Source: Chitinophagia bacterium (GTDB lineage: Bacteria > Bacteroidota > Bacteroidia > Chitinophagales > Chitinophagaceae). Taken from it: a stretch of DNA of 14,713 nucleotides. This document shows, piece after piece, positions 1,755 to 14,713 of the stretch; within the stretch, counting starts at the first letter, position 1; each line of letters starts with the position of its first letter. The position numbers and the translations under genes are program-made. The notes under the pieces are model-generated. The model saw nothing but the letters and a program-made list of their open reading frames with translations. It was not told where the DNA came from and searched no databases. Where the stretch lies: NCBI GenBank assembly GCA_010027295.1, contig RGVM01000015.1, positions 1-14,713 on the forward strand, in the 5' to 3' direction.

Positions 1755-1801
1755 TGAAAGCCCGCGCCGAAGAGGGAAGGGATGCGCGCCTACCGCTCGG
1801 A

Positions 1802-2212
1802 TCAGGGATTCAGCCAACTGAAGACAAGTCCGGCCACGAAGGCCTGGAAGATGCCGTAGCACAACCAGCAGAGGACCTGGATGCCCGACACGTTCAGGGC
1901 GGTATAGGTCATCCATAGCACCGGTAGCATCGCCACCACGCCGTAGACGAGCGCCACCTCCAGTGCACGCATCAGTCCACCGGCCGGGAAAAGGTCCTTG
2001 TAACGCTCCCAGAACCACTTTAGCGCAAAACTCAACACAAAGGGATGGAGGTAGAACATCCAATCAGTCGAACGGTCCGACCAGCGGAATGCCTGGCTCC
2101 AATAGGTGTCCGCCATTTCTGGAAAGATCCGGAACTGCAGGAAGAAGATGGCTAGGCTCAGGATCAGCAGGACAGAACCTGCGGTGAATCCGGCTATGAG
2201 TGCCTTTTTCAT
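1802..2212 (-). CDS. Four-helix integral membrane protein of unknown function
   Basis: This 136-residue hydrophobic protein has four predicted membrane helices at about residues 5-25, 50-66, 81-103 and 108-130. A charged segment, ERYKDLF, separates helices 2 and 3, and an aromatic loop, FRWSDRSTDWMFYLHP, precedes helix 2. It resembles small conserved membrane proteins seen in Bacteroidota, but I cannot name a function. MKKALIAGF at 2212 is preferred over the upstream ATG at 2245 because it gives the usual short basic N-terminus before helix 1. It lies 43 nt after the YceI-like gene, so co-transcription is likely. Confidence 0.75.
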   Translation of the reverse strand: MKKALIAGFTAGSVLLILSLAIFFLQFRIFPEMADTYWSQAFRWSDRSTDWMFYLHPFVLSFALKWFWERYKDLFPAGGLMRALEVALVYGVVAMLPVLWMTYTALNVSGIQVLCWLCYGIFQAFVAGLVFSWLNP

Positions 2213-2255
2213 GGAATGGGTTTTTTGGATGCATGGAATGGACACGGAGTCAGTC

Positions 2256-2876
2256 CTACGGGAGCCGGGGCAAACCCTCTTCAGCCTTGGGCTTCAAGGT
2301 CATCACATACCGTATGGTGACCTTCTCGCTCGTGCGTATCGCCCCCAGCATCACGCTGATGGGCTTCACGTTGTAGTCGGTCGTCAGAAGGGGATAGGAA
2401 CCCTCGATCGTGACCGACCTGTCGGGGTTCACCTTTGCCATAGCAGACAGGGTGACGTCACGGGTCACGCTGCTGATGCTGAGCCTTCCGTCGACAATGA
2501 TGCCATAAGCCCCGCTGGCAGCGGGCCGGAGGGTGGCCGTGCCGGCCTCGAATCGGATCGTCGGATGGTTCTCTTCGTCCATCGCCTTGTAGGCGTTGTT
2601 GTCCATCTGACTTCCCTGCTCGCTTTTCAGACTGTTCACAGGCACCGTGAACCGGACATTGCCGACGCCCGTCAGCGCACCGGCCGCATCTATCCGCAGA
2701 CTCAGGGTGCACGCACCCTTTCGGGACACCATCTCCCAGTCATGGATATTGGAGGTGCCCAGTATGGTCGTCGTGACCTCTCCACCCGATGTGTACGGAG
2801 TCTGAGACCGGCATGGCGCCGGAAACATGGCGGCAATCAGAATCGTGGCGGTTGGGAAGAAGAAATGATGTTTCAT
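2256..2876 (-). CDS. YceI-family periplasmic protein
   Basis: This is a 206-residue secreted protein. Residues 1 to about 24 form a signal peptide: basic MKHH, a hydrophobic core, and probable cleavage near CRSQ-T. The rest matches the YceI fold, a lipocalin-like beta-barrel that binds isoprenoid or other long amphipathic ligands in characterised members. Visible family marks are GTSNIHDWE near the start, a VPVNSLKS strand, MDNNAYKAM followed by HPTIRFE, GRLSISSVTRDVTL, and a late VTIRYVMTLK strand. Start 2876 is preferred because it gives a normal signal peptide; an in-frame ATG at 2924 would add 16 hydrophilic residues. It begins 60 nt after the PPDK stop. The ligand is unknown. Confidence 0.85.
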   Translation of the reverse strand: MKHHFFFPTATILIAAMFPAPCRSQTPYTSGGEVTTTILGTSNIHDWEMVSRKGACTLSLRIDAAGALTGVGNVRFTVPVNSLKSEQGSQMDNNAYKAMDEENHPTIRFEAGTATLRPAASGAYGIIVDGRLSISSVTRDVTLSAMAKVNPDRSVTIEGSYPLLTTDYNVKPISVMLGAIRTSEKVTIRYVMTLKPKAEEGLPRLP

Positions 2877-2936
2877 CAGAATTTTTTTTACAGAGTAGGA
2901 GAACCGGCAGGCATCCCCCATCACCGAATCGGGTTA

Positions 2937-5714
2937 TCATCTCGTCAGGCAGGCCTGCGCAGCAGCCAGCCGCGCAATGGGGACACGGTAGGGCGAACAG
3001 CTCACATAGTCCATGCCAAGACCATGGAAGAAACGGACACTCTCCGGATCACCACCATGTTCGCCGCAAATACCCACTTTCAGGGCCTTGTTGGATTTTC
3101 TGCCACGTTCCGTACCTAGACGTACCAGCTCTCCGACGCCTTCCTGGTCGATGCTCTGGAAGGGGTCCTGTAATAGGATCCGTTGCTCGAGATACACGGG
3201 GAGAAAGCCTCCGATGTCGTCGCGACTGAAACCGAAACACATCTGTGTGAGGTCGTTCGTTCCGAAACTGAAGAAATCGGCTTGCTGTGCCATCTCACCG
3301 GCCTGCAGGGCGGCCCTCGGAACCTCGATCATGGTGCCGAATTGGTAGGGGATGCGTCGCAGTCCCTTCGATGCACAGACCTCCCGGTGCACACGCTCCA
3401 CGATCGCCCGCTGGTGCACCAGCTCGCTGGAAGTGGACGTGACCGGGACCATGATCTCGGGAAATGCCTTCCTACCCTCCGCCCGCAACTCGGCCGTCGC
3501 CTCCAGGATGGCGCGTACCTGCATCTCGGTGATCTCCGGGTAGCTGATGCCGAGGCGTACCCCCCGGTGGCCCAGCATCGGATTGTTCTCGTGCAATGCC
3601 AGCACCCTCCGGCGAAGGACACCCGGACGCACGCCGAGTACCTCCGATAGCTCCTTCAGTCGGACAGGGTCGTGCGGCACGAACTCGTGCAGCGGCGGGT
3701 CCAGGAGCCGTATCGTCACGGGACGGCCCGCCATCACCGAGAGGGTCGACTTGATGTCGCGCTTCACATGCCTCGACAGCTTTCCAATGGCTTCGCGGCG
3801 TTCCGCCTCCGTCTCGCTCAGAATCATCCTCCGCAGCAGGAAGAGAGGCTTCTCGCTATGCTCCCCGTAGAACATGTGCTCCGTACGGAAGAGGCCCACC
3901 CCCTCAGCCCCGAAGGCCAGCGCGACGGCCGCATCCTGCGGCGTGTCGGCATTCGCCCTGACACCCATGGTCCGGAAACCGTCGACGAGCCGCATGAAGG
4001 CCCGGTAAGGTCGGTTGGATCGGATATCGATGTCCACCAGCGGCAGCTGTCCCTCGTACACCAGTCCTTTCGTGCCGTTCAGGCTCAGCCAGTCACCTTC
4101 CCGCACCACCTGCCCGTCCTTCGTGCGGAAGGTCCTCCGCTCCTCATCTATCTCGATGTCGCCGCAGCCCACGATGCAGCACTTGCCCCATCCGCGGGCC
4201 ACGAGCGCCGCATGCGATGTCATGCCCCCCTTCGATGTCAGGATGGCCTGTGACTTGTGCATGCCGTCCACATCCTCCGGGGATGTCTCCTCACGCACCA
4301 TGATGACCTTCTCGCCCTTCGAAGCCCAAGCCACTGCATCCTCGGAACGGAAGACGACCCGCCCCCTCGCTCCGCCGGGCCCCGCGGGCAAACCCTTGGC
4401 CATGGGCTTTGCCGCGTGCTCTGCCAGGGGGTCGAGCATCGGCAGGAGAAGCTCCACCAGCTGGTTGGGCGATACCCGCTGCACCGCGGTCCTGGCCGGT
4501 ATCAGCCCTTCCCGATGCATGTCAACCGCCATGCGTACCGCAGCCATACCATTGCGCTTGCCCACACGGCACTGCAGCATGTACAGCCTACCCTTCTCGA
4601 TGGTGAATTCGATATCCTGCATGTCACGGTAATGCCGCTCCAACCGCCGCTGATATTCCCATAACTCCTTGTAGATGCCGGGCATGCTGCGTTCCAGCGT
4701 CGGCAGATGGCGACTCTGTGCGTTCTTCGAGTACTCGTTCACGGGTGCGGGCGTACGGATGCCGGCGACCACGTCCTCCCCCTGCGCGTTCATGAGGTAC
4801 TCGCCGTAGAAGCGGGCCTCCCCCGTACCGGGATTGCGCGTGAAGCCGACGCCCGTGGCACAGTCGGGTCCCATGTTCCCGAAGACCATCGCCTGGACGT
4901 TCACCGCCGTACCCCAGTCGTCCGGTATCTTCTCGATCCGCCGGTACTCGATGGCCCGCTTCCCATTCCAACTCGAAAAGACGGCTCCGATGGCGCCCCA
5001 TAACTGCTCCCATGGGTCATCGGGAAAGGATCTTCCCAGCACCTTCACGACGGTCGCACGAAACTCCTCCACCAGGGCCTTCCATTCGGCAACGGTCAAC
5101 TGCGTGTCGGAATCATAGCCCCGCCGGCGCTTCACCTCCTCCAACAGGCTGTCCAGCACCTTCCGGATGCCGACACCGCCGCGGGGCTCCACGCCGGCAG
5201 CCTTCTCCATCACCACATCCGCATACATCATGATGAACCTGCGGTAGGCATCGTACACAAAGCGATCGTCGCCCGACTGGCGGATCAGGCCCTCCAGGGT
5301 ATCCCGACTCAGCCCGACGTTCAACACCGTCTCCATCATGCCCGGCATCGAACGCCGCGCACCCGAACGGACAGAGAGCAACAGCGGATTCCGCGGATCG
5401 CCGAAACGCCTGCCCATCAAACGGCCGACCTCGGAGAGCGAACGCCTCACCTCCGCCTCCAGACCCCGCGGATACGAATGCCCCTTCTCATGGTAGTGCA
5501 TGCAGACATCCGTACCGATCGTGAAGCCGGGAGGCACCGGCAGCCGCAACTTCGGATGACCCGCCATCTCCGCCAGGTTCGCACCCTTCCCGCCCAGCAA
5601 CTCCTTCATCGATTCGTTGCCGTCGGCACGCCCGCCTCCGAAGAAATACACGAGTTTCCTTGAAGCCTTGCCCGGCTTGCCTGACTTCACCGCCTTTGCC
5701 CTGGACATTACCAT
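2937..5714 (-). CDS. ppdK: Pyruvate, phosphate dikinase
   Basis: This 925-residue cytoplasmic enzyme interconverts pyruvate, ATP and Pi with PEP, AMP and PPi, linking glycolysis and gluconeogenesis. The domains are in the usual order. The nucleotide-binding domain starts at LLGGKGANLAEMA with later SVRSGARRSMPGMMET. The phospho-histidine domain has GGMTSHAALVARG (catalytic His near residue 501). The C-terminal PEP/pyruvate barrel has GVGLFRTEHMF, RLLDPPLHEF, GTMIEVPRAA, FGTNDLTQM and ICGEHGGDP (catalytic Cys near 883). The TSH context distinguishes it from PEP synthase. Its length is close to the family norm of about 875-910. ATG 5714 or 5708 fits best, just before the conserved VYFFGGGRADG. 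The frame stays open to an ATG at 5894, but that extension is unlike the family. It heads the four-gene minus-strand cluster. Confidence 0.95.
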   Translation of the reverse strand: MVMSRAKAVKSGKPGKASRKLVYFFGGGRADGNESMKELLGGKGANLAEMAGHPKLRLPVPPGFTIGTDVCMHYHEKGHSYPRGLEAEVRRSLSEVGRLMGRRFGDPRNPLLLSVRSGARRSMPGMMETVLNVGLSRDTLEGLIRQSGDDRFVYDAYRRFIMMYADVVMEKAAGVEPRGGVGIRKVLDSLLEEVKRRRGYDSDTQLTVAEWKALVEEFRATVVKVLGRSFPDDPWEQLWGAIGAVFSSWNGKRAIEYRRIEKIPDDWGTAVNVQAMVFGNMGPDCATGVGFTRNPGTGEARFYGEYLMNAQGEDVVAGIRTPAPVNEYSKNAQSRHLPTLERSMPGIYKELWEYQRRLERHYRDMQDIEFTIEKGRLYMLQCRVGKRNGMAAVRMAVDMHREGLIPARTAVQRVSPNQLVELLLPMLDPLAEHAAKPMAKGLPAGPGGARGRVVFRSEDAVAWASKGEKVIMVREETSPEDVDGMHKSQAILTSKGGMTSHAALVARGWGKCCIVGCGDIEIDEERRTFRTKDGQVVREGDWLSLNGTKGLVYEGQLPLVDIDIRSNRPYRAFMRLVDGFRTMGVRANADTPQDAAVALAFGAEGVGLFRTEHMFYGEHSEKPLFLLRRMILSETEAERREAIGKLSRHVKRDIKSTLSVMAGRPVTIRLLDPPLHEFVPHDPVRLKELSEVLGVRPGVLRRRVLALHENNPMLGHRGVRLGISYPEITEMQVRAILEATAELRAEGRKAFPEIMVPVTSTSSELVHQRAIVERVHREVCASKGLRRIPYQFGTMIEVPRAALQAGEMAQQADFFSFGTNDLTQMCFGFSRDDIGGFLPVYLEQRILLQDPFQSIDQEGVGELVRLGTERGRKSNKALKVGICGEHGGDPESVRFFHGLGMDYVSCSPYRVPIARLAAAQACLTR

Positions 5715-5731
5715 GGTTTGTTGTTTCCACA

Positions 5732-5739
5732 CATAGGTA
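5732..5739 (-). promoter_or_regulatory. Possible -7 element (TACCTATG) before PPDK
   Basis: On the minus strand TACCTATG is one mismatch from TAnnTTTG and lies 17 nt before the ATG at 5714. That spacing resembles the better promoters at 1747 and 12008. It supports 5714 as the start over 5894. Confidence 0.35.
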
Positions 5740-5874
5740 TGCCGATGGCCCCGGACGATACATGGCTGATCGTCAGGAAAGGTCATGACAATGGTCATCC
5801 GCCGACTCTGACGATCCTTCATACTTCCAAGTCCCGGATGACCACGCTCATGGGAAAGCCTGCACGCGCCTGTG

Positions 5875-5882
5875 TACCTTTC
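5875..5882 (+). promoter_or_regulatory. Possible -7 element (TACCTTTC) before polX
   Basis: TACCTTTC matches TAnnTTTG except for the last base and lies 14 nt before the ATG at 5897, in the 182-nt gap between divergent PPDK and polX. No -33 element is apparent. The rest of that gap shows nothing coding; it holds a GTCATGAC palindrome near 5782. Confidence 0.35.
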
Positions 5883-5896
5883 CTTGCTCGGCAACC

Positions 5897-7675
5897 ATGG
5901 ACATAGCCAACACAGAAGACTGGAGGACGAACAGGGAACTGGCCGACATCTTCACCCGCATGGCCGGTTGCTACCGATACCTCGGGAACACGGAGCGCTT
6001 CCGGGCCATAGCCTACGAACGCGCCGCCAGAACCCTCGCAGGCCTGCCTGACGACATCTCCACCTACGCGACCGATACCGCCTCCCTCGACCGGCTGCCC
6101 AATATCGGGGAAGGCATCGCCGAAAGGATCCTCGAATACCTCCAAACCGGTCATATCGCCACCTGGGACGAGCTGCAAAGACAGGTACCCATCCCGCTGC
6201 TCGACATCATGGAGATACAAGGCATGGGACCCGCCACCACGAAGTCGCTCCACGAAGCCCTTGGCATCGAAGACAGGCAAGACCTGGAAGACGCCATCCG
6301 GGACGGACGAGTCTCCAAACTCAGGGGATTCGGCCCCAAACGACTCGAGAACATCCGAAAAGCACTCAAGCTCGACAAGGAATCCCATGGGAGACTGCGC
6401 CTGGACACGGCTCTCCGCATCGGTGAAGACCTGCTCCGACAGGTACGCGCCATCCCGTGCGTCATCAGGGCCGAACTCGCCGGCAGTCTCCGGAGGAGGA
6501 AGGAAACCATCGGCGACATAGACATCCTGGTCACATGCGCAGCCTCCGGCAGGAAAAGTATCATCCGACACTTCACCCGTACGCCCGGCGTAAGTAGGGT
6601 CCTCGCCTCCGGAGATACCAAGGCCAGCATCCTCCTGGCATCCCCCGAAGTGCAGGCCGACCTCCGACTCGTAGAACCCGAGGCCTTCGGCTCTGCTTTC
6701 CTCTACCTTACCGGCTCGCGCGAACACAACATCAGACTCCGGTCCCTCGCGCGCGAACGACATGGGAAGATCAACGAGTACGGCCTCTTCGGTCCCGATG
6801 GGAAGGAACGGCTGGCAGGCGATACCGAAGCTTCAGTCTATCAGGCGCTCGGACTAGCCTACATCGAACCCGAACTGCGGGAAGACAGGGGGGAACTCGA
6901 CCTCGCAGCCCGTAACCGACTGCCCTCTCTCGTGGGAGTCAGAGACATGCGCGGCGACATGCAGATGCACTCCGTCTGGAGCGATGGGGCCACAGATATC
7001 GCCACGCTGGCTAGCGAGGCCCTGCGAAGGTTCCCCCGTTACGAATACATCGTCATCACCGACCACTCGCCCTCTGTCCGTATCGCCCGCGGCATCGACC
7101 CGAAAGGTTTCCGACGGCAATGGAAGGAGATCGACAGGGTCAATGCCGACATCGGACGCGCCTTCGTGAAAAAAGGCGTGGAAGTCGACATCCTCGCGGA
7201 TGGCTCCCTCGACCTGCCCGACGATGTCCTGGAAGGCTTCGAATGGGTCACCGCCTCCATCCACTCCGGTTTCCGCAAAGACAACACGGAACGATTGCTA
7301 CACGCCTGCCGACACCGGCTTGTCCATGGCATCGGACATCCCTCGGGAAGACTCCTCATGAAACGGGAACCCTATGCCGTCGACTGGCCCGCCGTTTTCC
7401 GAAGCGCCGCAGAGACCGGCACCTCGATGGAAATCAACGCACAACCCGACCGCCTGGACCTCCGCGACGACCTTGCCAGACAGGCCGTCGCCGCCGGAGT
7501 CAGACTGACCGTCAGCACAGACGCCCACCATCCATCCCAGCTGGACCATATCCACCTGGGCATCTCCCAGGCCCGACGGGCAGGGTGCACCCGGGAAAAT
7601 ATCCTCAACACCCTGCCCTGGGCCGGCGTCCGCCGCTTCCGCGATGCCAAGGCCTCATCATACGCAACCCGATAG
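5897..7675 (+). CDS. polX: Family X DNA polymerase / 3'-5' exonuclease (PolX)
   Basis: This 592-residue protein combines a repair polymerase with a metal-dependent nuclease and probably fills gaps in base-excision repair. Residues 1-90 are the helix-hairpin-helix N-terminal domain (LPNIGEGIAERI). A second HhH, MEIQGMGPATTK, lies at 105-116, and LRGFGPKRLENI at 142-153. The polymerase core has AGSLRRRKETIGDIDILV at 195-212, with catalytic Asp207 and Asp209, a third Asp255 in QADLRLV, and YLTGSREHN at 270-278. The C-terminal PHP domain has GDMQMHSVWSDG (353-364), ITDHS (387-391), Glu429, SIHSG (455-459), GHPSGR (480-485), MEINAQP (511-517) and STDAHH (540-545). All these motifs look intact. The TAG stop overlaps the first unit of the repeat array. 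Confidence 0.95.
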   Translation: MDIANTEDWRTNRELADIFTRMAGCYRYLGNTERFRAIAYERAARTLAGLPDDISTYATDTASLDRLPNIGEGIAERILEYLQTGHIATWDELQRQVPIPLLDIMEIQGMGPATTKSLHEALGIEDRQDLEDAIRDGRVSKLRGFGPKRLENIRKALKLDKESHGRLRLDTALRIGEDLLRQVRAIPCVIRAELAGSLRRRKETIGDIDILVTCAASGRKSIIRHFTRTPGVSRVLASGDTKASILLASPEVQADLRLVEPEAFGSAFLYLTGSREHNIRLRSLARERHGKINEYGLFGPDGKERLAGDTEASVYQALGLAYIEPELREDRGELDLAARNRLPSLVGVRDMRGDMQMHSVWSDGATDIATLASEALRRFPRYEYIVITDHSPSVRIARGIDPKGFRRQWKEIDRVNADIGRAFVKKGVEVDILADGSLDLPDDVLEGFEWVTASIHSGFRKDNTERLLHACRHRLVHGIGHPSGRLLMKREPYAVDWPAVFRSAAETGTSMEINAQPDRLDLRDDLARQAVAAGVRLTVSTDAHHPSQLDHIHLGISQARRAGCTRENILNTLPWAGVRRFRDAKASSYATR

Positions 7676-7783
7676 GTTTTGAGAACTCCCCCCGGTTCCG
7701 AGAACCCCCCTATGTCCTCAGAACCCAACATGGTTTTGAGAACCATACCCGGTTTTGGGAACTACGCCATTTCCCGGTTCCAG
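7675..7783 (+). repeat. Degenerate tandem array, about 19-bp period, core GGTTTTGAGAACC
   Basis: Units begin at 7675, 7694, 7714, 7732 and 7751, spaced 19, 20, 18 and 19, with a partial unit GGTTCCAG at 7776. The cores are GGTTTTGAGAAC, GGTTCCGAGAACC, GTCCTCAGAACC, GGTTTTGAGAACC and GGTTTTGGGAAC. Several carry inverted arms: GGTTC-CGA-GAACC in unit 2 and GGTT-TTGAG-AACC in unit 4. The spacers are C-rich and not conserved. The array starts on the last base of the polX stop and ends 26 nt before the deacylase ATG. It could be an operator array, a transcript-end structure or a degenerate minisatellite. Confidence 0.7.
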
Positions 7784-7793
7784 CATCCCTTCG

Positions 7794-7801
7794 TACCTTT
7801 T
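7794..7801 (+). promoter_or_regulatory. Weak -7-like element (TACCTTTT) before the deacylase
   Basis: TACCTTTT matches TAnnTTTG except for the last base and lies 7 nt before ATG 7809. If used, the message would be nearly leaderless. Support is positional only. Confidence 0.25.
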
Positions 7802-7808
7802 CCTCACC

Positions 7809-9382
7809 ATGACACTGCTCCACAGAACCCTCGTCCGTTAGGACTTCTCTTCTGTTCCTTCGCCACCGGACAGGACAAGCCCGACCTGATCATCATCAAC
7901 GGCCGCATCATCGATGGGACAGGAAATAACTGGTACTACGGCGACATTGCCGTCCACCAGGGCCGCATCCAACGCATCGGGCGCAACCTCCCCCGCAACG
8001 CCGCCCGCATCGTCGACGCCGCGAATCGATTCGTGAGTCCCGGCTTCATAGACGTCCATGCCCATATAGAAGGAGGCATCTTCGAACGCCCCACCGCCGA
8101 CAACTACATACAGGACGGCGTGACCACCGTCGTCACCGGCAATTGCGGCAACTCCGCTGACGACCTCGGCAAGTTCCTCGACCGGATTGACAGCATGCAG
8201 ACCTCCATCAACGTGGCGTCCCTCGCCGGGCACAACACCATCCGCCGCATGGGCATGGGCCTGGGCGACCGGCAACCCACAGCCGATGAACAGCGAAAGA
8301 TGGAACAGCTCATGGCCAAAGCCATGGAGGAGGGGGCCGTTGGTCTTTCCTCCGGCCTCATCTACCTCCCCGGCATGTACTCCAAGACGGATGAGATCGT
8401 CGGCCTGGCCCGTGTCGCGGCCCAATCGGGCGGTGTGTATGCCACCCATATGCGCAACGAGGGCGCCAGGGTCACCGACGCCATCGAAGAAGCGCTCACC
8501 ATCGGCCGGCAGGCGTCCATCCCGGTACAGATATCCCATTTCAAAGTCGCCGGTCGCGCCAACTGGGGCCGTTCCTCACAAACCCTCGAGATGGTGCAGG
8601 CCGCCCGCCGGGAAGGCATCGAAGTGACCATCGACCAATACCCATACACCGCCAGCAGCACCAACCTCGCCGTCACCGTACCCGACTGGGCCCTCGACGG
8701 AGGTCTTGACTCCCTACGCGTCCGGATCAAAGACCCCGCCACCCGCGGCCGTATCGTATCCGACATGGTTCGGAGCCTGAAGAAGGGGAAGAACAAGGAC
8801 TATAGCTACGCCGTCGTGGCCAACTACGGTCCCGACTCCACCCTCAACGGGAAGAACATCAGCGAAGTCAATATCCGGAAAGGCCGGAAGAAGGGCGCCA
8901 GGAACGAGGCCGAGACAATCCTCGACATGCTATCCATCGCCAATGCACAGATGGTCTATCACACTATGAACGAGGACGATGTGATCCACTTCATGCGGTA
9001 TCCTTTAAATATGCCCGCAGCCGACGGCGGCGTCAGCAACGGAAAAGGCATGCCCCATCCCCGCGGCTATGGTACCAACGCCCGCGTGCTGGGCCGATAT
9101 GTACGGGAGAAGCAGGTCATCGGCTTCGAAGAAGCCATCCGACGCATGACATCACTGCCTGCACAGAAGTTCGGAATCAAAGACAGAGGGCTGCTCCGCG
9201 AAGGGTTCATGGCCGACATTGTCGTCTTCGACCCGGAAACGGTGTCAGACCGCTCGACCTTCGACGTACCCCACCAGTTCTCGGCCGGGATACCCTATGT
9301 CATCGTCAATGGAAAAGTCACCGTGGAGGAAGGCAGGCACAACGGAACCCGTAGCGGGAAGACACTGCGGCAAAGGTCCTAA
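7809..9382 (+). CDS. Secreted N-acyl-D-amino-acid deacylase-like amidohydrolase; signal peptide frameshifted
   Basis: The body of about 515 residues is a D-aminoacylase-type amidohydrolase, which hydrolyses N-acyl-D-amino acids. Marks are DLIIINGRIIDGTG, GFIDVHAHIE (metal HxH codons at 8057-8065), GNCG (Cys codon 8144, a metal ligand in this family), THMRNEG, QISHFK, AADGG, MPHPRGYGT and a late MADIVVFDPET. Upstream, ATG 7809 opens MTLLHRTLVR and hits TAG at 7839, while the enzyme's frame reads LGLLFCSFATGQ from 7838. One extra T in CGTTAGG would join them into a normal signal peptide. The body's frame has no good start of its own: TTG 7679 or ATG 7712 lie in the repeat array and give an unconvincing leader. 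Either a single-base sequencing error or a recent inactivating deletion fits. The specific substrate is not established. Confidence 0.8.
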
Positions 9383-9504: not shown

Positions 9505-11505
9505 CTATTTCCCGAACTTCCCCTTTGCCTCGTCCAGGAGCCGGATGAACTTTGCAATATCAGGGTCGTATCCATATCCCTCTGGAACCAGCCGCTTCTC
9601 CTCGTTGTCGAGGAAGAAGTAATAGGGTTGGCTGTTGGCCTGGAAGCGGGTGACCTGCATGTCGGCGTTCTTGTCTCCCAGGGTAAACACTTTCTTTCCC
9701 AGGGCCTCCGACCGGTAGTGCTCGGCCTCAGGCAACTCGATGTCCTGGACGTCCACATACAAGGACACGATCACGAAATCCTCCTTCAGCCGGCGCATCA
9801 CCTCGGGGTCGCTCCACACTTCCGCCTCCATCTTCCGGCAGTTCACGCAATTGATGCCGGTGAAGTCCAGCATCAGCGGCTTCTTCAGCCTGCGAGAGAC
9901 CGTCAGCGCCTCCTCATAGTCGAAATACGTCGTCATGCCGTACTTCCTGACCACTTCCGGCTCATAGACCCGCATGCGCTCATAGTATTTCACCGGATGG
10001 GGGAGCTTCCCTTCTCCCGATGCAGGCGAGGCGGATGAACCCTGACCTGGGGATGCGTCGGAGATGATGAAGTCCTGCGTACCCACCGGCGGCAGGAAGG
10101 CGCCGATGGCCTTCAAAGGTGCGCCCCACATGCCCGGCACCATGTACACCGCAAACGACAGGGAGGCGATCGCGAAGAAAAGGCGAGTGACGGAGAGATA
10201 AGGAAGGCCGAAATCGTTCTTCGGGAGCTCGTCGTCGTGATGGAACCTCAGTTTCCCGAGCAGATAGATGCCCAGCAGGAGGAATATCACGATCCATAGG
10301 GATAGGAAGACCTCGCGGTCGAGCAGCCGCCATCCCTTTACGAGGTCGGCGTTCGAGAGGAACTTCAGGGCCAGCGCCAGCTCCAGGAAGCCCAGCGTCA
10401 CTTTCACCGCATTCAGCCAGCCCCCCGCCTTGCCCAGGATGTTGAGCTTGCTGGGGAAGAAAGCAAAGAGCGCGAACGGCAGGGCCAGCGCGAGGGAGAA
10501 TCCGAACATACCCACCAAGGGACCCAGGTAGCTGCCCCTGGCCGCTAACACCAGCAGGTTGCCGATGATCGGACCCGTACAAGAGAACGACACCAGCACC
10601 AGCGTCAATGCCATGAAGAAGATGCCGCCGAAACTGGTGGAGCCCGCGCGGGCATCGGAGCGGTTCGTCCAGGAGGAGGGCAGGTTGATCTCGAAGGCGC
10701 CCAGGAAGGATATGCCGAAGACCAGGAAGAGGATGAAGAACAAGAGGTTGGCTATCCAGTTAGTGGCAAGGTTGTTCAGGGCCGCAGGGCCGAAGACGAC
10801 CGTGACCAGGAAGCCCAGCAGCGTGAAGATCACCACGATGGAGACGGCATAGTACACTGCATTCCGGATACCCTCCGACCTTGTGGTACTCCGCTTGGTA
10901 AAGAAACTCACCGTCACCGGAATCATCGAATACACGCAGGGCGTCAACAACGCCAGCAGACCCCCGGCGAAGGCGGCCAGGAAGACCCACCAGAGGGAAC
11001 GGTCGGCCACGGGTGTTCCTCCGCCCTTTCCGTCGATGCCGCGCTCCGGAAGGATGGCAAAACGAAGAGGCTCCTCACCGTTGACGAACGACTGGCCAAC
11101 CTTGCAGATATAGCGCAGACTGCCCCGAACCACGAGGCTGTCGGCCCGTCCGGCGCGGACGCGCTGCGACCAGACCACGGAATCGCTGTGATAGCCCACC
11201 TCTGCGTCCAGGTCGGGATCCATATCCTTCGTCACCGCCCCTTGCACCGCCACCGGCCCGCTGAGGTGCGGAAGCGACAGGCTGTCGAACACCAGCTCCG
11301 TATAAAGCAGCTCGGCACCCGTCACAGGCAAGGCATACAACCTTGCCCCCTGCCCGATGCCAACCTGCACGGACAGCATCACGGTGCTGTCGTCGATACG
11401 CTGACTGGCATAGTGGAATGCAAGCGGGGCCTTCTCCTGCCCGGTCACGAACAAAGACACCGTGGAGAATACGGCAACAGACAACAGGAGCCGGATGGGA
11501 CGCAT
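9505..11505 (-). CDS. dsbD: Thiol:disulfide interchange protein DsbD (alpha-like, CcdA-like and thioredoxin domains)
   Basis: This 666-residue inner-membrane protein moves electrons from cytoplasmic thioredoxin to periplasmic thiol partners. Residues 1-22 are a signal peptide. Residues about 25-155 are a DsbD-alpha-like beta domain. Residues about 172-480 hold eight or more membrane helices, with the transmembrane redox cysteines Cys190 (LLTPCVYSMIP) and Cys309 (SFSCTGPIIG). A Ser/Gly/Pro-rich linker lies at 482-502. Residues 520-666 form a thioredoxin domain with Cys553-V-N-Cys556 in FTGINCVNCRKMEAEVW. The N-terminal domain has only Cys134 in YICKVGQS, with Ser139 where the second alpha-domain cysteine would be. 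It follows the free alpha-domain gene by 15 nt, so the two very probably share a transcript. Confidence 0.93.
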   Translation of the reverse strand: MRPIRLLLSVAVFSTVSLFVTGQEKAPLAFHYASQRIDDSTVMLSVQVGIGQGARLYALPVTGAELLYTELVFDSLSLPHLSGPVAVQGAVTKDMDPDLDAEVGYHSDSVVWSQRVRAGRADSLVVRGSLRYICKVGQSFVNGEEPLRFAILPERGIDGKGGGTPVADRSLWWVFLAAFAGGLLALLTPCVYSMIPVTVSFFTKRSTTRSEGIRNAVYYAVSIVVIFTLLGFLVTVVFGPAALNNLATNWIANLLFFILFLVFGISFLGAFEINLPSSWTNRSDARAGSTSFGGIFFMALTLVLVSFSCTGPIIGNLLVLAARGSYLGPLVGMFGFSLALALPFALFAFFPSKLNILGKAGGWLNAVKVTLGFLELALALKFLSNADLVKGWRLLDREVFLSLWIVIFLLLGIYLLGKLRFHHDDELPKNDFGLPYLSVTRLFFAIASLSFAVYMVPGMWGAPLKAIGAFLPPVGTQDFIISDASPGQGSSASPASGEGKLPHPVKYYERMRVYEPEVVRKYGMTTYFDYEEALTVSRRLKKPLMLDFTGINCVNCRKMEAEVWSDPEVMRRLKEDFVIVSLYVDVQDIELPEAEHYRSEALGKKVFTLGDKNADMQVTRFQANSQPYYFFLDNEEKRLVPEGYGYDPDIAKFIRLLDEAKGKFGK

Positions 11506-11520
11506 CGCCGTGGGATTCCC

Positions 11521-11988
11521 TTATTTCAACTCTATGGAGAAGTTCTGCGTGGCGGGAGGCAGACACTCCGTATCGTTGCAGACCATATACTCAACGCTGC
11601 CGCTCACATTCGTCTTCACCTTGCCCTTCACCGTCACCGTCTGCAAGAAGGTGACTTCATTGGAGAACTGGTGCACGTCCACCCCGAAGAGCTTTTCATG
11701 GCGCTTCTCCAACTTGCCGACCTCCTTCACGGGACCCGTCAGATCGACGAGTGGATTCTTGGTAAATTTGAAGGCCGTGGGAATGGGTCCCCCGTCGGGC
11801 GTCGCCTGCGAATACAAGTGCCATCCCTTCTCCAGCGACGCACGGACAACCACCTCGTATTTACCTTTGCCCGACGGACGGGCGCTGTAGGACCATTTCA
11901 CAGGATTCCTGACCTGCGCACCGACCTCCGGGGCCGAAGTCAGCATCAGGAGGACCGTCAACAGGGAGATGCAGAGGCTCTTAGTCAT
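11521..11988 (-). CDS. Stand-alone DsbD N-terminal (alpha) domain protein
   Basis: This is a 155-residue periplasmic protein. Residues 1-24 are a signal peptide ending near VGAQ. The rest resembles the DsbD alpha domain, the immunoglobulin-fold module that passes electrons to periplasmic targets. GWHLYSQATPDGG at 55-67 is the typical early motif, and VEYMVCNDTECLPP at 132-145 holds the redox pair Cys137 and Cys142. It precedes dsbD by 15 nt in one operon. Because the fused domain of DsbD lacks one cysteine, I infer that this protein is the working output module, reduced by DsbD. That role is inferred from cysteine content and position only. Confidence 0.88.
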   Translation of the reverse strand: MTKSLCISLLTVLLMLTSAPEVGAQVRNPVKWSYSARPSGKGKYEVVVRASLEKGWHLYSQATPDGGPIPTAFKFTKNPLVDLTGPVKEVGKLEKRHEKLFGVDVHQFSNEVTFLQTVTVKGKVKTNVSGSVEYMVCNDTECLPPATQNFSIELK

Positions 11989-12007
11989 GGCAAGGTATTG
12001 TGGTCCG

Positions 12008-12015
12008 CAAAATTA
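12008..12015 (-). promoter_or_regulatory. Bacteroidota -7 promoter element for the Dsb operon
   Basis: On the minus strand TAATTTTG is a full match to TAnnTTTG, followed by CGG, and ends 19 nt before the ATG at 11988. No -33 TTG is evident at the normal spacing. Confidence 0.55.
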
Positions 12016-12081
12016 GACATTATCCAGACGCGGCGGGGTCTCGATTGCTCATCAAGATACCGGCTAACGGTTGCACGGAAT

Positions 12082-12106
12082 GACAAAGAGCCGTTAAATA
12101 TGGCTC
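12082..12106 (-). terminator. Possible terminator overlapping the stop of the 69-residue gene
   Basis: On the minus strand GAGCC-ATATTTAAC-GGCTC is followed by TTTGTC. The left arm begins within the TGA stop at 12105-12107. The 5-bp stem and short T-run make it weak. Confidence 0.4.
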
Positions 12107-12314
12107 AACCACGGATGATTTGCTCCGTCGGGACGATCTCTGTGCTGTCGTTGGCCACGAAGAATTCGGGCTTGCTCTCGCTCTGGTAGAGTTCGCGGTA
12201 CTTGTTCTGGAGCCTGCGCTTGTAGTTGCCCAGATAGCCCGGCTTGGAGACGAGCTCCTTGTCCAATGACACGGTCTCGATCAGCTCGTCTCCGACGAAC
12301 ATCAGGAGTTTCAT
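12105..12314 (-). CDS. Small protein of unknown function
   Basis: This is a 69-residue cytoplasmic protein with no signal peptide or membrane segment. It starts MKLLMFVGDELIETV, has a basic middle (LGNYKRRLQNKYRELYQ) and ends EIVPTEQIIRG. I do not recognise a family. The beta-strand-like start, basic helix and second strand-like stretch (PEFFVAN) suggest a compact fold. ATG 12314 is preferred over 12335 because it starts directly at the hydrophobic strand. It is followed by a possible terminator and transcribed divergently from the helicase gene. Coding status rests on frame quality and position, not on homology. Confidence 0.6.
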   Translation of the reverse strand: MKLLMFVGDELIETVSLDKELVSKPGYLGNYKRRLQNKYRELYQSESKPEFFVANDSTEIVPTEQIIRG

Positions 12315-12381
12315 GGGGGTCCGGTTTTGATACAAAAAAACAATGGCGCCGGACAGCTGTCAATCCAACTAGTACTCGATT

Positions 12382-12428
12382 ATGTATCGTACATCTACGC
12401 GCCTCCAAGGGCCCCGTGCTCGTACATC
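12382..12428. repeat. Palindrome and 9-bp direct repeat in the divergent intergenic region
   Basis: The 208-nt gap at 12315-12522 has no evident gene. It holds the inverted repeat ATGTA-TCG-TACAT at 12382-12394 and a direct repeat TCGTACATC at 12387-12395 and 12420-12428, 33 bp apart. GTCCGG at 12319-12324 and CCGGAC at 12349-12354 form another inverted pair. These could be regulator sites for either gene but may be chance. Confidence 0.35.
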
Positions 12429-12522
12429 CGTCAGGGTTGCACACAGGGAAAACGCGATGCTGCGAAGGGACTTTGTTTTTCACATCGGGCGGAGGCACAG
12501 CCATTCATCCTAACTTGCGGAT

Positions 12523-14277
12523 ATGCAGGACTATCTGAAGGGATTGAACGACCGGCAGCGGGAAGCCGTCCTCCACCTCGACGGCCCCCTCATGATCATC
12601 GCCGGCGCAGGCAGCGGGAAGACCAAAGTCCTGACCACACGCATCGCGCACCTCATGGCCAACAGGGTGGACCCCTTCCGCATCCTCGCCCTGACCTTCA
12701 CCAACAAGGCAGCCCGCGAGATGAAGGAACGCGTGGAGAACATCTTCGGCAACAACGAGTCCAGAAACCTCTATATCGGCACCTTCCATTCCGTCTTCGC
12801 CCGCATCCTCCGCGCCGAAGCCCAACGCCTCGGATATCCGACCGCCTTCACCATCTACGATACCGACGACGCGAGGGGCGTCGTGAAAACTGTCATTCAG
12901 GAACTCAACCTCGATGACAAGCATTACAAGCCCGCCGCCGTCCTCAACCGCATCTCGAGCGCAAAGAACGCCCTCGTGGGACCGGAGGAATACGCCGCCG
13001 ATGCCTACCTCCAGCAGGAGGACGCCCGGTCCAACCGGCCCGCCATCGCCCAGATATTCGCTTCGTACGTCAAGCGCTGCTTCCGCAACGGGGCCATGGA
13101 CTTCGACGACCTCCTCCTCAAGTTCTACGAACTCCTCCGCAACTTCCCCGACAGCCTGCACAAATACCAGCACAAGTTCCGCTACATCCTCATCGACGAG
13201 TACCAGGATACCAACCCGGCCCAGTATGAGATCATCAAACTCCTGGGCGCCGCCCACGAGAATGTCTGCGTCGTCGGCGACGATGCACAGTCCATCTACT
13301 CCTTCCGCGGCGCCACCATCCAGAACATCCTCCAGTTCCAAAAAGACTACGCCGACGTGCACCTGGTGAAACTCGAACAGAACTACCGCAGCACACGGCA
13401 TATCCTCGAAGCCGCCAACAGCGTCATCGGGAACAACCGCAACCAGATACCCAAGGCCCTCTGGACGGAGAACGGAGAGGGCGAGAAAATACGCCTCGTC
13501 CGAACCCTCACCGACAATGACGAGGGTCGTTTCGTGGCCGACACCATCCAGGAACAGAAGTTGCGAAACCACTGTTTCAACCGAGACTTCGCCATCCTCT
13601 ACCGAACCAACGCACAGAGCCGGGCCTTCGAAGAGGCCCTCCGCCGCATGAACATAGCCTATACCATGTACGGCGGCATCAGCTTCTATCAGCGGAAGGA
13701 GATCAAGGACTTCGTCGCCTACCTGCGCATCCTCATCAACCCACGCGACGAGGAATCCCTGAAACGCATCATCAACTACCCCGCCCGCGGCATCGGTAAG
13801 ACCACCATCGATAAGGTCATCCTCATCGCCAACGAACAGAACATAGGCATGTGGGAGGTCCTCACACAGGCCGCCCGCCATGGCTTCCGCGCAGGAACCC
13901 TCGAGGCCATCGAGACCTTCGTCACCATGATCCGCAGCTTCGCCAGCATGCTCGGACAGAAGAACGCCTATGAAGTCGCCGTACACGTGGGCAAACAGAC
14001 CAACATCGTCCGCGAACTCTCGGGAGGCGATACACCGGATCTCTTTTTGATCCGTAACCTTTCGGTCGGGCGCGAAGAGAAGTTCGCGGACTATAGCAAA
14101 GTCCTCTTCAATCTCGAGATCGAAGCCCCGTTCATGTCCGTGGGCCACTTCCTCGAAAAGCTCGAAAAATCAGACCTCCTCACCGAAGTGGTCAACATCG
14201 ACATCTCGCGCGTCGAGCGCGAGATGAAGCGCTGCACGATCAAACTCAGCCTCTACTCCTACGTGGCCAGGCTGTAG
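12523..14277 (+). CDS. UvrD/PcrA-type helicase N-terminal two-thirds joined to an unrelated tail
   Basis: Residues 1-505 of this 584-residue frame are a superfamily-1 DNA helicase of the UvrD/PcrA type, used in repair and clearing of protein-DNA blocks. Visible are the Q-motif LNDRQREAV, Walker A GAGSGKT (28-34), motif Ia LALTFTNKAAREM, GTFHS, DFDDLL, motif II LIDEYQDTNPAQ (223-234), motif III VGDDAQSIYSFRGA (251-264), motif IV LEQNYRST (284-291) and YGGISFYQRKEIKD (383-396). Family members run about 720-780 residues and then carry motif V (AKGLEF) and motif VI (ALTRA); both are absent. After GGDTP at 501-505 the sequence becomes unrelated to UvrD. ATG 12523 is sound, with the family-typical start and TAACTTGC 4 nt upstream. 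As written the product should lack helicase activity. Confidence 0.85.
   Translation: MQDYLKGLNDRQREAVLHLDGPLMIIAGAGSGKTKVLTTRIAHLMANRVDPFRILALTFTNKAAREMKERVENIFGNNESRNLYIGTFHSVFARILRAEAQRLGYPTAFTIYDTDDARGVVKTVIQELNLDDKHYKPAAVLNRISSAKNALVGPEEYAADAYLQQEDARSNRPAIAQIFASYVKRCFRNGAMDFDDLLLKFYELLRNFPDSLHKYQHKFRYILIDEYQDTNPAQYEIIKLLGAAHENVCVVGDDAQSIYSFRGATIQNILQFQKDYADVHLVKLEQNYRSTRHILEAANSVIGNNRNQIPKALWTENGEGEKIRLVRTLTDNDEGRFVADTIQEQKLRNHCFNRDFAILYRTNAQSRAFEEALRRMNIAYTMYGGISFYQRKEIKDFVAYLRILINPRDEESLKRIINYPARGIGKTTIDKVILIANEQNIGMWEVLTQAARHGFRAGTLEAIETFVTMIRSFASMLGQKNAYEVAVHVGKQTNIVRELSGGDTPDLFLIRNLSVGREEKFADYSKVLFNLEIEAPFMSVGHFLEKLEKSDLLTEVVNIDISRVEREMKRCTIKLSLYSYVARL
14038..14277 (+). other. PilO/GspM-like C-terminal fragment fused in frame after the helicase
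   Basis: About 79 residues read in the helicase frame from 14038 to the TAG at 14275. They include LFLIRNLSVGREEKFADY, NLEIEAPFMSVGHFLEKLE, LLTEVVNIDIS and a closing CTIKLSLYSYV. The pattern (a beta-strand, a helix around FLEKLE, then strands with an alternating hydrophobic end) resembles the C-terminal domain of PilO/GspM-type assembly proteins. The downstream GspE/PilB gene supports this. The real N-terminus of that protein is missing. The family call is an inference from pattern and neighbour. Confidence 0.4.
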
Positions 14278-14358: not shown

Positions 14359-14713
14359 ATGGCTGATTCGACGGCAAAAAAACTCGAGAGCCCTTCCGCC
14401 CAGGCCGGCGGGACGGCTGCCGTTTCGAGTAAAGTCGCCAACCGCAAGAAGCTCGGCGAGATGCTCGTCGAAAAGCAGCTCCTGCGCGCAGGCGAGCTTT
14501 CTGCCGCCGTCAAGCGCGCCGAGCACGACAAGATCCCCCTGGGTACCTACCTCGTCAGCGAAGGCCTGATCTCGGATGTCGACATGGCCAGGGTGTTGGC
14601 CGAGCAGCTCGAGATGGAGTACGAGGATCTTTCGCGCAAAGTAGTCTCTGCCGACGTGCTCAAGTCCATGCGCCCGGACGTGATCCGGGAGTACTCGATC
14701 CTTCCCTTTGCCC
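14359..14713 (+). CDS. N-terminus of a GspE/PilB-type secretion or pilus ATPase (partial, runs off the window)
   Basis: The frame is open for 118 codons from ATG 14359 to the window edge. A hydrophilic leader of about 30 residues (MADSTAKKLESPSAQAGG) is followed by a GspE N-terminal domain. Its marks are KKLGEMLVEKQLL, IPLGTYLVSEGLIS, LAEQLEMEYEDLS and REYSILPFA, the usual two-repeat pattern LGExLVexgLi ... LAeqlgleyvdL. In this family the domain precedes a hexameric ATPase that powers type IV pilus or type II secretion assembly. The Walker motifs would lie beyond the window. The start is supported by GAGGA 10 nt upstream. Such genes are unusual in Bacteroidota and fit the idea that sequence right of 14038 has another origin. 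Confidence 0.8.
   Translation, partial: MADSTAKKLESPSAQAGGTAAVSSKVANRKKLGEMLVEKQLLRAGELSAAVKRAEHDKIPLGTYLVSEGLISDVDMARVLAEQLEMEYEDLSRKVVSADVLKSMRPDVIREYSILPFA

Follow-up and report, generated by a model that had tools for sequence, protein, structure and literature searches.

Chimeric contigs in metagenome assemblies are characterized by an abrupt join near one end, ordinary gene parts on each side of it, and a continuation on another contig. We analysed a window of 14,713 bp, which is the whole of contig C47 of a Chitinophagia bacterium; the genome assembly to which it belongs (G000; completeness 92.79, contamination 4.48) is in 923 contigs. C47 shares these features with such contigs, and no difference from them was seen at the sequence level. 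One gene part resembles the UvrD/PcrA superfamily 1 DNA helicases, with residues 1–499 at 78–90% identity to the 11 best same-genus relatives; unlike these helicases, the window lacks the 3' part, which sits on contig C358. The other resembles a PilB/GspE-type ATPase (type IV pilus or type II secretion), its first 118 residues being 90% identical to the metagenomic protein P0002; unlike such ATPases, the window's copy is cut by the contig end and lacks the catalytic domain. Judging from these sequences, the end of C47 is almost certainly an assembly chimera, in which uvrD would be misjoined to DNA of a pilus/secretion locus and C358 would be the true continuation. Because the window is the whole of C47, the anomaly comprises the final 694 bases of the contig. 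The features concerned are as follows:

12523..14019, plus strand: 5' part of uvrD/pcrA, 499 codons, 3' part missing (Pfam, NCBIfam, same-genus genes)
14018..14021, no strand: junction, best estimate directly after 14019 (ends of the alignments to relatives)
14020..14277, plus strand: tail part 1, final 85 codons plus stop of a weakly PilO-like frame that continues the uvrD reading frame (PF04350, under cut-off)
14359..14713, plus strand: tail part 2, opening 118 codons of a PilB/GspE-type ATPase, truncated where the contig stops (P0002, NF053729, TIGR02538)

The uvrD gene in the window lacks its 3' part

The 584-residue frame described in an earlier note on this DNA exists (12523–14277) and stays open across the junction. 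The Pfam UvrD-helicase profile matched it at 6.9e-91 with the whole N-terminal domain present, and UvrD_C matched partially (profile positions 1–167 of 350), confirming that the helicase core is incomplete, as that note had stated; complete N- and C-terminal helicase domains, expected of UvrD/PcrA, were not found together in the window. The absent part is presumably that of helicase motifs V and VI. The best NCBIfam profile was PcrA (1.1e-186, residues 5–505), which scored under its whole-protein cut-off, as expected, because uvrD is a fragment here. The 11 best same-genus uvrD genes, which formed the aligned set (loci L003–L013), matched residues 1–501 (or 2–501) at the identity given above. 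A protein search in 40 genomes (G000 and 39 relatives, E ≤ 0.001) gave some match in 38 of the 39 relatives, weaker paralogues counted, and none in G022. A 547-codon open frame also runs antisense to uvrD (window 12505–14148, minus strand) and is probably a by-product of codon usage.

The similarity to uvrD breaks at about position 14019

The nucleotide alignments ended at window positions 14018 (G007) and 14020 (G005), and the protein similarity to the 11 same-genus genes ended at ...NIVREL, with the codon ending at 14019 (residue 499). After (K/R)EL, all 11 aligned genes continue with FNDKSTEG and the window continues with SGGDTPDL. The abrupt in-frame loss of UvrD similarity that had been reported was thus confirmed by both kinds of alignment. 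However, the UvrD/PcrA match had been placed through GGDTP, to about 14037; since the alignments to relatives stop at 14018–14020, the join lies at about 14019, approximately 18 bases earlier, and GGDTP therefore belongs to the foreign DNA. The alignment to the NCBIfam PcrA profile extends six residues past the break, to 505. The join sits 694 bases from the contig end.

The tail holds a weakly PilO-like end and the start of a pilB/gspE-like gene

To characterize the 694-base tail, we compared its two parts with profiles and protein sets. On 14038–14277, PilO (PF04350) matched at E = 0.034 with 14.7 bits against a cut-off of 22 (profile positions 72–140 of 145), so that this partial domain fell outside the family by the curated cut-off; DUF2250 (0.0016) and TerD (0.017) scored better and were likewise under cut-off. 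NCBIfam profiles gave no match on 14020–14277, a search of 23 relatives with the 85-residue piece (14020–14274) returned nothing at E ≤ 0.1, and a scan of viral contigs with the PilO-like piece gave no match. The last 79 residues (14038–14277) had no homologue at E ≤ 0.001 in a 5.8-billion protein set, under word and length filters that only one candidate passed and of which the length filter excludes full-length PilO. The PilO/GspM-like character earlier proposed for this piece is therefore weakly indicated, chiefly by the gene downstream of it.

As the frame is open over 584 codons, the locus could in principle encode a natural helicase–PilO fusion protein that has its own function. None of the 39 relatives, however, matched all 584 residues; a whole-length homologue was one of the observations that the earlier note had named as speaking against a join. 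The longest match, in the more distant G027, was reported as spanning residues 3–547 at 52% identity within a 757-aa frame. With the helicase incomplete and the last 79 residues lacking a homologue under the conditions above, we regard a natural fusion as extremely improbable. Most probably, the reported junction is an artefact, and it brings nothing biologically novel.

The gene after the PilO-like piece had been called GspE/PilB, and the 118 residues at 14359–14713 proved to be a PilB/GspE-like start. NF053729 matched them above its cut-off and TIGR02538 at E = 1.1e-6. MshEN scored under its cut-off on them; P0002 (586 aa, PF05157 and PF00437), which is encoded on a contig of 5917 bases, carries both MshEN and T2SSE. 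The 118-residue start retrieved only itself from the protein set until full-length candidates were admitted, after which four homologues of 580–586 aa were found at 65–90% identity.

No close source of the tail was found among the genomes and sets searched

Searched against G000, the tail DNA gave itself and 23 chance-like matches of 15–49 bases (E ≥ 0.0255), with no second copy. At E ≤ 10, the ATPase start retrieved nothing in G000 besides itself, and the T2SSE profile gave no match there; MshEN gave none either, a weak test as the window's own fragment was equally undetected. Across 24 genomes (G000 and 23 relatives), T2SSE matched at E ≤ 0.001 in 16 and above its cut-off in G029 only, a genome of the same order. 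That G029 locus (L017, G029:C64:2480–3589) is a nearly full T2SSE ATPase, 36% identical to P0002, and represents contamination or a real acquisition.

Of 395 same-phylum genomes (G000 included) searched with P0002, 145 had related ATPases at E ≤ 1e-60, at no more than 48% identity among the matches listed; there was none in G000, nor in 13 other same-family genomes among those listed without a match, and a further 230 genomes also gave no match. A scan of genome contigs returned one relative at 33%, from a Thermodesulfovibrio MAG, which is too remote to show where the tail came from. P0002 found no match in viral contigs; the plasmid search gave none, and neither did Rfam in the window.

The tetranucleotide comparison that had been proposed gave a divided answer. 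By distance, the tail lay beyond all 134 overlapping segments of the contig body; by correlation, 5 of the 134 deviated as much as the tail or more. GC content (0.582 in the tail) was rejected as a criterion for a foreign tail because it does not shift at the join. Composition is thus mixed evidence on the tail.

The uvrD 3' part missing from C47 is found at one end of contig C358

To locate the missing 3' end of uvrD, which the earlier note had suggested seeking on another contig, we took the C-terminal 322 residues of the helicase from G007 as query. A single match was found in G000, at C358:9721–10554 on the minus strand, with 79% identity over query residues 45–321. The uvrD 3' part there comprises 280 codons (9715–10557, minus strand) and is open at the contig end; with its 10,558 bases, C358 stops before the frame is complete, and helicase similarity reaches to 4 bases from its end.

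Gene order was compared by nucleotide alignment in two relatives, G007 (C4) and G005 (C55). In G007:C4, window 12124–14018 aligned to 74004–72124 and C358 10524–9724 to 71960–71163; in G005:C55, window 12472–14020 aligned to 11672–10124 and C358 10466–9715 to 9898–9141. In both relatives, C47 up to 14018–14020 and the end of C358 thus adjoin inside a single uvrD, the two halves being contiguous. The aligned ends are 163 bases apart in G007, and C358 has 34 further bases there, leaving roughly 130 bases unassembled; C47 and C358 do not overlap, and the link across these bases rests on the relatives. Because both pieces align side by side in one uvrD of relatives, C358 is most likely the true neighbour and continuation of C47. 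Because the missing half is present on C358, in the same order as in two relatives, the organism itself most likely has an intact uvrD.

Assembly chimera versus recombination

The position of the uvrD 3' end at a contig end makes foreign DNA between C47 and C358 formally possible, so that a recent recombination or insertion in a real strain could have split uvrD, with pilus-locus DNA lying between its halves or replacing the second, and left a shortened helicase that carries a PilO-like tail. Such an event would require that foreign DNA separate the two parts of uvrD, yet the foreign DNA seen consists of parts of two genes only, C358 encodes helicase up to 4 bases from its end and shows no second junction, and the search of G000 revealed no further T2SSE ATPase. 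Moreover, the uvrD frame was unbroken (816–843 aa) in 10 of the 11 aligned loci, the 11th (L007) being cut by a contig end. We therefore consider recombination very unlikely. The earlier alternative of "chimeric contig join or recent recombination" stands, with the evidence favouring the chimeric join: the uvrD 3' end lies on another contig end, the relatives keep both halves in order, the tail has no second copy, and the join is near the contig end. A misjoin would explain all that was seen, namely two ordinary gene parts meeting, the lost half elsewhere in G000 and the normal order in two relatives.

Under this chimeric join, C47 would be sound up to about 14019, within an ordinary uvrD/pcrA gene, and would there be wrongly joined, presumably by the assembler, to a 694-base piece of a locus like those for type IV pili or type II secretion, in the order PilO-like end and then pilB/gspE-like start. 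The tail would come from another organism, most likely one living in the same community. The consequence concerns data quality only: neither the 584-aa "fusion" nor the pilus genes should be credited to this organism, and C47 is best cut back to about 14019 and connected with C358.

Other differences in synteny

The comparison with relatives also revealed differences away from the junction. At window 11906–12124, G007:C4 has about 10 kb (84174 to 74004) between the flanking homologues, absent both here and in G005. Window 1763–7861, with long frames at 2937–5894 and 5897–7675, had no nucleotide match in the compared part of G007:C4, where about 210 bases separate its flanks; in G005, 2953–5627 of it is matched. 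Beside uvrD on C358, the stretch 8939–9284 is inverted relative to G007:C4 (71127–70782), and its neighbours align directly.
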